From a virus: a DNA stretch of 58,518 bases. Positions within the stretch are counted from its first letter, which is position 1. The number at the start of each line of letters is the position of its first letter. The notes under the pieces were generated by a model. The model worked only from the letters and a program-made list of their open reading frames with translations, was not told the DNA's origin and searched no databases. Below, in pieces: positions 5,097-48,883 of this stretch. The DNA is taken from the IMG/VR virus record IMGVR_UViG_3300047472_000128, positions 1-58,518 of that record. One strand, written 5' to 3'. The translations under genes were made by a program, and so were the position numbers.

Positions 5097-5306
5097 ATGC
5101 AAGCCGTACTCGACACCCTACGAGCCGAACTCGCCGAGAAACAGATCAGCCAACGCGTCCTCGGCGACAGGATCGACCGCACCCAGCAATGGGTACTACA
5201 CCACCTCGCCGGGAACTACGTCCTCAGCATGGAAGACTTCATGCTCTTCTGCGCCGGCATCGACATCGACCCCATCACCACCCTCGCCAAAGCCCTCAAA
5301 CAGTGA
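5097..5306 (+). CDS. Small Cro/XRE-like HTH regulator
   Basis: 69 residues. AELAEKQISQRVLGDRIDRTQQWVLHHLAGN is a helix-turn-helix of the XRE/Cro type, followed by a short helical C-terminus (MEDFMLFCAGIDIDPITTLAKAL). The ATG lies 7 nt after a TACGGT -10 box and has no ribosome site, so the transcript is probably leaderless. It borders a dyad operator, suggesting autoregulation and control of the divergent operon. It could be the lytic/lysogenic switch repressor or a Cro-type early repressor; without an integrase, the latter seems likelier. Confidence 0.75.
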   Translation: MQAVLDTLRAELAEKQISQRVLGDRIDRTQQWVLHHLAGNYVLSMEDFMLFCAGIDIDPITTLAKALKQ

Positions 5307-5331
5307 AAGCCACACCGAAGTGTGGCTTTCA
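5304..5331 (+). terminator. Perfect 12-bp stem-loop directly after the HTH gene
   Basis: Arms TGAAAGCCACAC and GTGTGGCTTTCA with a CGAA tetraloop begin at the stop codon itself. No U-tract follows. The ribosome site of the next gene (GAAGGAG at 5335-5341) comes just after the stem. It may partially terminate, or shield the 3' end of the regulator message, setting the ratio between the regulator and the operon downstream. Confidence 0.6.
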
Positions 5332-5346
5332 CCCGAAGGAGCACCA

Positions 5347-43433: not shown

Positions 43434-43847
43434 TCAGCTCGGTTCCTTCGAGACGCTGATCTGATGGTTCTGTGCGATGCCGATTCCTTCGGCGAGGTAT
43501 CGGAACTTCAACGCTTCTTGGACGTTGAGCGCGTTCGACGCCCATATCTGGGCAGCGAGTCCCTCGTACGTGAGCTTCGATGCCTGGTTGCGGCGGGCGA
43601 GTTCCATCCACCGTTCTTGCGCCCAGGTGTTCTGTTCGCCGACGAGTTCACCGATTGTGGTTCCGAAGACTTTGCTGAGCGCGACCAGTTGGAAAGCGCT
43701 GACGCCCTGGGCCCCGGCTTCGACGTTGCTGACGCTCGGCCGGCTGAGGCCGATCGCTTCGGAGAGCGCCGCTTGTGTGAGGCCCATGGCTTTACGCCGG
43801 ACAGCGATCTGGTGCCCCAGGTGGGCGAGGAATTCGGTTTCATCCAT
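43434..43847 (-). CDS. XRE-family HTH regulator
   Basis: 137 residues from ATG 43845-43847. LGHQIAVRRKAMGLTQAALSEAIGLSRPSVSNVEAGAQGVSAFQLVALSKVFGT is a full XRE helix-turn-helix (about 8-62). The C-terminal half (ERWMELARRNQASKLTYEGLAAQIWASNALNVQEALKFR) is helical and may dimerise. A possible ligand of the TGTTGA-N5-TCAACA operators near 46.3 and 46.8 kb (inference). Overlaps a micro-protein gene by 8 nt. Confidence 0.82.
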   Translation of the reverse strand: MDETEFLAHLGHQIAVRRKAMGLTQAALSEAIGLSRPSVSNVEAGAQGVSAFQLVALSKVFGTTIGELVGEQNTWAQERWMELARRNQASKLTYEGLAAQIWASNALNVQEALKFRYLAEGIGIAQNHQISVSKEPS

Positions 43848-46304: not shown

Positions 46305-46335
46305 TGTTGACACCTTCAACACGGGAGGTTAAGCT
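46305..46335 (+). promoter_or_regulatory. Strong promoter with operator TGTTGA-N5-TCAACA
   Basis: TTGACA (46307-46312), 17 bp, TAAGCT (46330-46335): a near-consensus primary-sigma promoter reading into 46365. The dyad TGTTGA-CACCT-TCAACA at 46305-46321 covers the -35 box. The same half-sites and 5-nt spacing recur at 46815-46831. Confidence 0.75.
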
Positions 46336-46364
46336 ATCCACAGGAGCTAACGAAGGAGCCCCCA

Positions 46365-46781
46365 ATGATCACCACCGGCCGCATCTCGACCCGCCACAAC
46401 GCCCGCACCCACATCGCCATCAACGGCAACACGATGTGCGGCACCAAGTCCCACGCCCCCATCGCCTACCCGTCGAAGACGTACGCTGGCATCGACCGGT
46501 CGCGGCTGTGCAAGCTGTGCTTCACCCCCGCACACCTCACCATCCTCCAGCGCGAGGTGACCAGCGCCCCCAGGTGGAACGCGGCGCTTGACAACTTCCT
46601 GTGCGACGTGCGCCTGATCGTGGGCCGCGAGCCGGAGACGGTGGAGGTGCGCACGGTGTTCCGGGTGGTGGCTCCGGTGGCTCCCAGGGTTCGGGAGATG
46701 GTGAAGCCGGCGCCTGGTACGTGGGGTGCGATGGCTGCGGGGTTCCGGAAGACGCATCCGCAGATGGCTGCGGCGGCTTAG
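46365..46781 (+). CDS. Hypothetical basic Cys protein
   Basis: 138 residues with GAAGGAG upstream. NTMCGTKSHAPIAYPSKTYAGIDRSRLCKLCFTPAHLTIL provides C...CxxC and H ligands. EPETVEVRTVFRVVAPVAPRVREMVKP follows. The first gene of the rightward 46.3-48.8 kb operon, driven by the strong promoter at 46307. Function unknown. Confidence 0.7.
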   Translation: MITTGRISTRHNARTHIAINGNTMCGTKSHAPIAYPSKTYAGIDRSRLCKLCFTPAHLTILQREVTSAPRWNAALDNFLCDVRLIVGREPETVEVRTVFRVVAPVAPRVREMVKPAPGTWGAMAAGFRKTHPQMAAAA

Positions 46782-46800
46782 TTGCGGGTGTGTCGTGTAC

Positions 46801-46845
46801 TTGACACATGGCAGTGTTGACTCTATCAACACTGCCATGTAAGAT
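46801..46845 (+). promoter_or_regulatory. Strong promoter overlaid by a 35-bp perfect palindrome
   Basis: TTGACT (46817-46822), 17 bp, TAAGAT (46840-46845). Arms of 15 bp, ACATGGCAGTGTTGA (46806-46820) and its exact complement (46826-46840), flank CTCTA. The core TGTTGA-N5-TCAACA equals the operator at 46305. A second TTGACA at 46801 with TATCAA at 46824 may be an overlapping promoter. The dyad lies upstream of the start point, so it acts as DNA, not as an RNA hairpin. Confidence 0.8.
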
Positions 46846-46873
46846 AAAGATACACCGAGGGAGAGGAACCCCA

Positions 46874-47176
46874 ATGAACACCAAGACCGCGAAGCCCACC
46901 ACCACCGAAATCGCCCGCACCCTCCACGCCGCCACCACCACCCGCGACGAAGCTGTCGCCCTGGTCGCCACCCTCACCGCCACGCAGCGCACCGAACTCG
47001 CCCGGCTCTACCTCGACCCCGCAGACCGCAAAGGACGCGTCGCGCGGATCCGCGAAGACCTCGTCGACGCCACCTGGGGCGACCGGGTCCGCATGGCCAA
47101 CCGGCTCGCCTACCTCCGCGCCTACAACGGCGACGAGACAACCCTCGCCTGCCTCCGCGCCGTGGGCGCCCGCTGA
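46874..47176 (+). CDS. Small helical protein
   Basis: 100 residues from ATG 46874 after GAGAGGAA. EIARTLHAATTTRDEAVALVATLTATQRTELARLYLD then GRVARIREDLVDATWGDRVRMANRLAYLRAYNGD. The first gene after the palindromic promoter, therefore likely expressed early and strongly. Possibly a small regulator or anti-host protein (inference from promoter strength only). Confidence 0.65.
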   Translation: MNTKTAKPTTTEIARTLHAATTTRDEAVALVATLTATQRTELARLYLDPADRKGRVARIREDLVDATWGDRVRMANRLAYLRAYNGDETTLACLRAVGAR

Positions 47177-47180
47177 ACCT

Positions 47181-47216
47181 GACGGTCGCACCGTCCCGCC
47201 CTCCACGGAGGGCGGG
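47181..47216 (+). terminator. Two tandem stem-loops
   Basis: GACGGT-CGC-ACCGTC (47181-47195) is followed by CCCGCCCTCC / GGAGGGCGGG (47195-47216, ten GC pairs). No U-tract. They start a few bases after the stop at 47176 and would attenuate transcription into 47257. Confidence 0.55.
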
Positions 47217-47256
47217 AGCGGGAGACACTCAGTCTCACCCAACGAAGGAGCACCCC

Positions 47257-47841: not shown

Positions 47842-48006
47842 ATGAGCAAGCAGCCCAAGTCCGAGCCGCTCGGCGACCGCACGCAGCGCCCCCACGACCC
47901 GGACGGTTGGCGGGTCGAACGTGACCACACCGAACCGACCGGCATCCAGCAGGACGACCGCAACGGCTGGCCCGCCGGTGACCCGAACCGGGGGCGCAGG
48001 GCATGA
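47842..48006 (+). CDS. Small polar protein
   Basis: 54 residues from ATG 47842 after GAGGAG. Very hydrophilic: SKQPKSEPLGDRTQRPHDPD then WRVERDHTEPTGIQQDDRNG. Probably disordered. Overlaps the sigma factor start as ATGA; being that small and coupled it might be an anti-sigma-like partner, but nothing in the sequence shows it. Confidence 0.55.
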   Translation: MSKQPKSEPLGDRTQRPHDPDGWRVERDHTEPTGIQQDDRNGWPAGDPNRGRRA

Positions 48007-48578
48007 CCACCACCGTTGACACCGAAGCGCCGGCGGTTGTGACCCGGGCGCAGGCTGGCGACCCTGCCGCGATCGCCGAGCTGTATGAGCAGTACTGGGG
48101 GTTGGTGTTCCGGTTCTGTTATCGGCGGACGAGTAACACGCACATGGCGGAGGATCTGGCCACGGACGTGTTCGTTCGCCTGATCAAAAAGGTCGACACG
48201 TTCGAATGGCGGGGGACTGCGCTCGGGGCGTGGCTTCTCATCGTGGCCCGGAACCTCATCGCTGACCGGTATAAGTCGAAGCCGTATCAGAAAGAAGTCC
48301 ATTCCGGGGTGGGTGTCGACTACGCCAGCGAATACCCGGCAGTCGGCCCCAGCCCGGAAGACGTGGCGACCGATCTCATCACCCATGAGACGGTCATCCG
48401 CATGATGGACCAGCTCAGCCCAGATCAGCGGGAGGTGCTGCGTCTGCGGTTCCTGTGTGAGATGTCGATGGAGGAAGCCGCCGCCGCCATGGGCAAAGAG
48501 GTCAGCTCCATCAAGGCGTTGCAGTTCCGGGCGGTACGGTCGATGCGGCGCCTGTTCCCGGACGGGAGCCCTCTGTGA
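48003..48578 (+). CDS. ECF-type RNA polymerase sigma factor
   Basis: 191 residues. Region 2: AIAELYEQYWGLVFRFCYRRTSNTHMAEDLATDVFVRLIKKVDTFEWRG (about 24-75), including the -10-recognising helix. Region 4: MMDQLSPDQREVLRLRFLCEMSMEEAAAAMGKEVSSIKALQFRAVRSMRRLF (about 130-185). Linker lacks extra domains. Redirects RNA polymerase, probably to a set of phage promoters, such as late genes. No anti-sigma protein recognised nearby. Confidence 0.9.
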   Translation: MTTTVDTEAPAVVTRAQAGDPAAIAELYEQYWGLVFRFCYRRTSNTHMAEDLATDVFVRLIKKVDTFEWRGTALGAWLLIVARNLIADRYKSKPYQKEVHSGVGVDYASEYPAVGPSPEDVATDLITHETVIRMMDQLSPDQREVLRLRFLCEMSMEEAAAAMGKEVSSIKALQFRAVRSMRRLFPDGSPL

Positions 48579-48808
48579 GCCCGCGTAAGAAGCTGTGGCG
48601 GGTGACGTCGGGGTGGACGTACGGGCGGAAAATCGACCCGGACAGTGTCCATCGTCCCGAGTCCAGGGCGAAGGCGTACCGCATCCACGTCGAGAACGCG
48701 CACCAGGCGAGAACCCACTCGTTCGTTCAGGTCTGGTACGACGCCCGCGACGGGCACGGGTGGCAGTTGTACGAAACCCTCCCGATCGAAGGCGGCCCGA
48801 AAGGGTGA
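48575..48808 (+). CDS. Small hypothetical protein
   Basis: 77 residues, GTG start overlapping the sigma stop as GTGA. RKKLWRVTSGWTYGRKIDPDSVHRPESRAKAYRIHVENAHQARTHSFVQVWYDARDGHGWQLYE: basic, with a small beta fold. Last gene of the rightward operon. Function unknown. Confidence 0.65.
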   Translation: MSPRKKLWRVTSGWTYGRKIDPDSVHRPESRAKAYRIHVENAHQARTHSFVQVWYDARDGHGWQLYETLPIEGGPKG

Positions 48809-48816
48809 CGGTACGA

Positions 48817-48857
48817 GCGAAGGCCCCCACCGGGAGACATTCGGTGGGGGCCTTCGC
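48817..48857. terminator. Bidirectional terminator between convergent units
   Basis: A 16-bp perfect stem, GCGAAGGCCCCCACCG with its complement, closes a 9-nt loop. TGTTGG follows on the plus side. It lies between the operon ending at 48808 and the convergent gene ending at 48884. Confidence 0.85.
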
Positions 48858-48883
48858 TGTTGGAGCATCCCGCGGTGAGGGTA

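Follow-up and report, generated by a model that had tools for sequence, protein, structure and literature searches.

Two matching candidate repressor operators at the promoters of a phage operon that contains an ECF sigma factor gene, one of them within a 35-bp perfect palindrome

The locus described here belongs to IMG/VR record IMGVR_UViG_3300047472_000128, which was analysed over its whole length (58,518 bp, hereafter the window). The window has a G+C content of 65.6% and encodes portal, major head and tape measure proteins, RecE/RecT-like proteins, an Lsr2-like protein and a large terminase with 46% identity to that of Saccharomonospora phage PIS 136 and about 42% to those of Gordonia phages. 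On the basis of these genes, the virus is most likely an actinobacterial siphophage. A search for tyrosine and serine integrases (Phage_integrase, Resolvase) across the record, which may be incomplete, found none; a role of the locus in lysogeny is therefore without support.

Two gene blocks diverge at the locus, and their features are collected in Table 1. The leftward block starts with the gene of a small HTH-like protein, includes a DNA methyltransferase gene, and may run on to the gene of an XRE protein. The rightward block is preceded by one promoter, P1, and contains a second one, P2, downstream of its first gene. An earlier note on this DNA had described P1 and P2 as driving an operon that ends with an ECF sigma factor gene. 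A single rightward block that includes such a gene is indeed found, but the sigma gene is not the last one, as a 77-aa ORF overlaps its stop codon.

Table 1. Features of the locus, with positions given in the window
Feature	Position	Strand	Remarks
IMG/VR record	1-58,518		whole record analysed
XRE (Cro/CI-type) HTH protein, 137 aa	43434-43847	-	candidate repressor; possibly a later gene of the leftward block
HTH-like protein, 88 aa	46002-46268	-	candidate regulator; longer GTG start at 46322 possible; weak YdaS match below the Pfam cut-off
Operator O1, TGTTGA-N5-TCAACA	46305-46321		TGTTGACACCTTCAACA; overlaps the -35 of P1
Promoter P1, TTGACA-N17-TAAGCT	46307-46335	+	followed by a leader with GAAGGAG before ATG 46365
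First operon gene, 138 aa	46365-46781	+	no family match
Perfect palindrome, 35 bp	46806-46840		15-bp arms, 5-nt centre; contains O2
Operator O2, TGTTGA-N5-TCAACA	46815-46831		TGTTGACTCTATCAACA; overlaps the -35 of P2
Promoter P2, TTGACT-N17-TAAGAT	46817-46845	+	sigma70-type
P2 leader	46851-46874	+	TACACCGAGGGAGAGGAACCCCAA; 24-nt identity to Streptomyces phage gene leaders
Second operon gene, 100 aa	46874-47176	+	no convincing family match
GC-rich hairpin, 11-bp arms	47194-47217	+	between second and third genes; possible attenuator or terminator
Third operon gene, 168 aa	47257-47763	+	no family match
54-aa ORF		+	between third operon gene and ECF sigma gene
ECF sigma factor gene	48003-48578	+	Sigma70_r2 3e-17, Sigma70_r4_2 7e-12; BldN family closest
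77-aa ORF	48575-48808	+	overlaps the stop codon of the sigma gene; ends the rightward block
Hairpin, 17-bp arms	48816-48858		located where two gene blocks converge; probably a terminator for both directions, lacking a U tract

Both 17-bp copies of the TGTTGA-N5-TCAACA site are exact, as had been claimed, and they are 510 bp apart. Each lies over a strong promoter of the sigma70 type, also in agreement with the proposal: only five sigma70-like sites in the whole record score 9/12 or better, and P1 and P2 are among them. The -35 is covered at both promoters, and the register is the same, with the end of the operator located 8 nt upstream of the -10. A scan of the 58,518 bp for the site returned O1 and O2 only, with either 0 or 1 mismatch allowed. 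The many matches at random places that the earlier note had named as the outcome that would speak against a shared operator are thus absent, with zero additional copies at up to one mismatch. When two mismatches were tolerated, four matches were found in the record, compared with a mean of 0.93 and a maximum of 3 in 100 dinucleotide shuffles, none of which reached four; the two additional matches (10656 and 25459) are both within coding ORFs. Furthermore, a 6-bp-arm dyad with at least four A/T in the arm was never repeated in 20 first-order simulations, while the TGTTGA dyad is repeated in the record.

The two halves of the site do not carry the same weight. At both operators the -35 lies partly within the left half-site (TGTTGAC), so that similarity on that side is in part derived from the promoter. 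For this reason, and because the element GTGTTGAC is frequent in Streptomyces phage promoters that have no dyad, most of the evidence is carried by the right half-site, TCAACA, which has a per-site probability of chance occurrence of about 8e-5 and is found at equal spacing in O1 and O2.

At P2, the symmetry extends far beyond the operator. The 35-bp perfect palindrome reported in the earlier note was corroborated, with 15 of 15 complementary positions in its arms; contrary to that note, it does not cover the whole of P2: it spans the -35 and the spacer but only one base, the first, of the -10. At the composition of the record, the expected count of perfect 15-bp arm pairs whose loop does not exceed 10 is 0.002. 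As RNA, the palindrome is predicted to form a hairpin of -24.2 kcal/mol by itself; in context the value is -45.2 (z -6.1). A run of U, which would be the hallmark of an intrinsic terminator, was sought after position 46840 and none follows the hairpin. No long hairpin is found at O1.

The XRE family assignment of the protein at 43434-43847 was borne out by a Pfam HTH_3 match (8.9e-13), and the protein falls among the PHROG transcriptional regulators. Its gene is 2.5 kb away from the operators, possibly in a leftward block that starts at O1, and in the scan of the record at up to one mismatch the XRE gene had no copy of the operator. Inspection by eye suggests a weak promoter for leftward transcription (TTGCGC-N17-TACGCT, at about 46300-46270), which might place a start near ATG 46268. 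The XRE protein is somewhat favored as the repressor since two-fold sites of 17 bp are typical targets of Cro/CI proteins, while the HTH-like protein is favored by its position. Structure predictions made without alignments had low confidence for both (pLDDT 45 for the HTH-like protein and 54 for the XRE protein).

The feature is real, and its best reading is of an ordinary kind, a phage repressor operator pair, whose odd point is the location of O2 within a much longer perfect palindrome. We assign a probability of about 0.7 to the proposal that a single dimeric repressor encoded by the phage uses O1 and O2 as its operators and acts at P1 and P2. Such a repressor would be made from the leftward block beside O1, as either the XRE protein or the divergent HTH-like protein. 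At both promoters, the bound dimer would obstruct the host RNA polymerase and in this way shut or tune the rightward operon, presumably early, that includes the ECF sigma gene. The longer arms at P2 might either make the repressor bind more tightly or also serve to terminate the P1 transcript; the latter role is proposed because the first operon gene has its stop codon 25 nt before the palindrome.

Repressor-operator switches of the Cro/CI type (lambda-like, XRE) are an ordinary layout in temperate phages, and the locus resembles them in several respects: operators of about 17 bp with two-fold symmetry over the -35 of early promoters, a phage-encoded XRE protein, and divergent transcription beside one operator, O1. 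Unlike in those switches, only two operators are present here, 510 bp from each other, the XRE gene adjoins neither of them, no integrase was found, and one operator is part of a 35-bp palindrome.

The position of the palindrome just past the stop codon of the 46365-46781 gene also admits another explanation, namely that it functions chiefly as an RNA hairpin that terminates or attenuates P1 transcripts and has P2 nested in it, and that the operator resemblance of O2 is merely its central part. We regard this explanation as possible but doubtful. The stability of the predicted fold is in its favor, and the lack of a U tract after the palindrome, which speaks against it, is shared by another likely terminator of this phage, the hairpin at 48816-48858. 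What it leaves unexplained is that the central 12 bases and the register to the -10 are shared with O1, which has no long hairpin. The two explanations overlap because terminator and operator roles could coexist. A further speculation, and a long shot, is that one palindrome serves as both: bound by the repressor, it would keep P2 silent, and as RNA it would end the P1 transcript whenever P1 is active. The two promoters would thus be coupled and would jointly time a BldN-like sigma factor that redirects developmental transcription in the host.

Relatives of the HTH-like protein, the XRE protein, the sigma factor and the operon proteins were not found in protein searches of viral contigs. Among 29 capsid relatives, none had an exact operator copy, a sigma factor match or an HTH protein match. 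One of these relatives (G002) contains two copies of a different dyad, TTGCTA-N6-TAGCAA (215-232 and 5314-5331 of locus L051), followed by promoter-like sequence at promoter-like spacing; a small HTH-like ORF directly precedes one of the copies, an arrangement in line with the repressor reading. A scan of viral contigs for the core of the longer palindrome yielded four matches, all in AT-richer contigs and in a non-promoter context, which were attributed to chance. Literature searches for the operator sequence returned nothing relevant, and no match was found in Rfam.

Genomes were also scanned for the operator and promoter in the same register; many of the matches can be put down to chance, as AT-rich genomes would be expected to give them. 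Each of the GC-rich phages retrieved with this pattern has 1-6 copies, against 0 for the reversed control. The GC-rich viral records G030, G031, G033, G035, G036 and G037 contain 2-6 copies each with no more than one mismatch, G035 and G036 not being independent as the same region is present in both. Many of the copies in GC-rich phages are found over TTGAC-N16/17-TAnnnT, close upstream of a start codon, and their form is TGTTGAC-N3-GTCAACA, with one base pair more per arm than O1 and O2. Several uncultured GC-rich phages (L247, L249, L250, L254 and L255) have multiple promoters of this form, and the -10 is often a few bases before the start codon, which gives them a leaderless appearance. Leaving G036 aside, the records listed above are like the locus in the outer half-sites, the position over the -35 and the presence of several copies per phage; they differ in the seventh symmetric base pair and the 3-nt centre, and the compared loci contain no homologous regulator or operon genes.

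The genes that accompany such sites are of various kinds. A similar site in G034 is beside a GntR-like ORF, and one on the Allosalinactinospora chromosome is beside a TetR-like ORF, both families having been read by eye rather than scanned. Two of the nine phages with a similar operator in which XRE proteins were searched gave a match above the family cut-off, and searches for XRE and MarR proteins in the multi-copy phages detected no common regulator. A palindrome built around the TTGAC of the -35 is thus probably a recurrent layout that unrelated regulators have reached. The regulator therefore cannot be named from the operator sequence alone; the recurrence of the layout in GC-rich phages whose regulators are probably unrelated warns against doing so.

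The occurrence of similar sites over the -35 on actinobacterial chromosomes, including those of Allosalinactinospora, in the case just mentioned, and Pseudonocardia, raises the possibility that O1 and O2 bind a host regulator. The phage would then have borrowed a host operator, and the state of the host would set early expression. This seems unlikely: no chromosomal relative is tied to this phage, and O1 and O2 lack the seventh symmetric base pair of the common TGTTGAC-N3-GTCAACA form.

Sequence around P2 offers a further comparison. The 24-nt leader is identical to leaders of Streptomyces phage genes, e.g., in Lululemon and Jay2Jay, and Streptomyces phages account for 45 of the 63 matched records (E 0.006); in Bmoc, Anedea and Daubenski the matched leaders stand 5' of an Lsr2-like gene. 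The match suggests a Streptomyces-like host, for which it is weak evidence on its own. Early genes of Samistivirus Streptomyces phages (Bmoc, Lululemon and others) share with the locus the leader CACCGAGGGAGAGGAACCCC and the promoter element GTGTTGAC, but their promoters have no palindromic operator. The recurrence of that element around the -35 without a dyad in Bmoc, Anedea, Daubenski and Lululemon might suggest that O1 and O2 resemble each other through shared promoter sequence plus chance right halves, an extremely improbable explanation given the rarity of TCAACA, its equal spacing at both sites and the 15-bp reach of the arms at P2.

If O1 and O2 are operators of a phage repressor, as we favor, the ECF sigma factor would be part of a small regulon. 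The protein is intact in regions 2 and 4 and thus has the ECF architecture. Its best NCBIfam model is TIGR02952 (BldN family), with 137.8 bits, below the cut-off of 206.45, and its nearest solved relative is PDB 6DXO (2.9e-33; next best, 1.6e-18), which we take to be Streptomyces BldN. BldN is a developmental sigma factor of Streptomyces. The phage protein is like BldN in these two matches and unlike it in its sub-threshold score and in that no RsbN anti-sigma partner was recognized. Related sigma genes are found on Streptomyces and Micromonospora plasmids, and in two inspected cases an Lsr2 gene comes after the sigma gene.

A delay circuit made of repressor, operator and sigma factor, as proposed earlier, is possible but unproven. 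Scans for a repeated ECF-type promoter motif (GGAAC...CGTC) upstream of phage genes, and for a BldN-like motif, revealed no pattern near gene starts, so that sigma targets are not visible; in addition, the sigma gene is not the last of its block. Because the GC-rich hairpin at 47194-47217 stands between the P2-proximal gene and the rest of the operon, transcription that reaches the sigma gene would depend on read-through, which the circuit assumes.

The locus offers a testable small regulon in a phage lineage in which neither the early genes nor the regulators have recognized relatives. Should host development genes prove to be targets of the BldN-like sigma factor, its presence in an actinophage would be of more general interest.

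Other symmetric sequences were observed in the record. Near its left end, an array of near-identical inverted repeats, AGTACTCCCC...GGGGAGTACTGA, occupies 629-790 with a spacing of 33 bp, and 761-785 is a further copy. At 5303-5332, a perfect hairpin with 13-bp arms stands directly 5' of a GAAGGAG ribosome-binding site and the start codon of a rightward reading frame.
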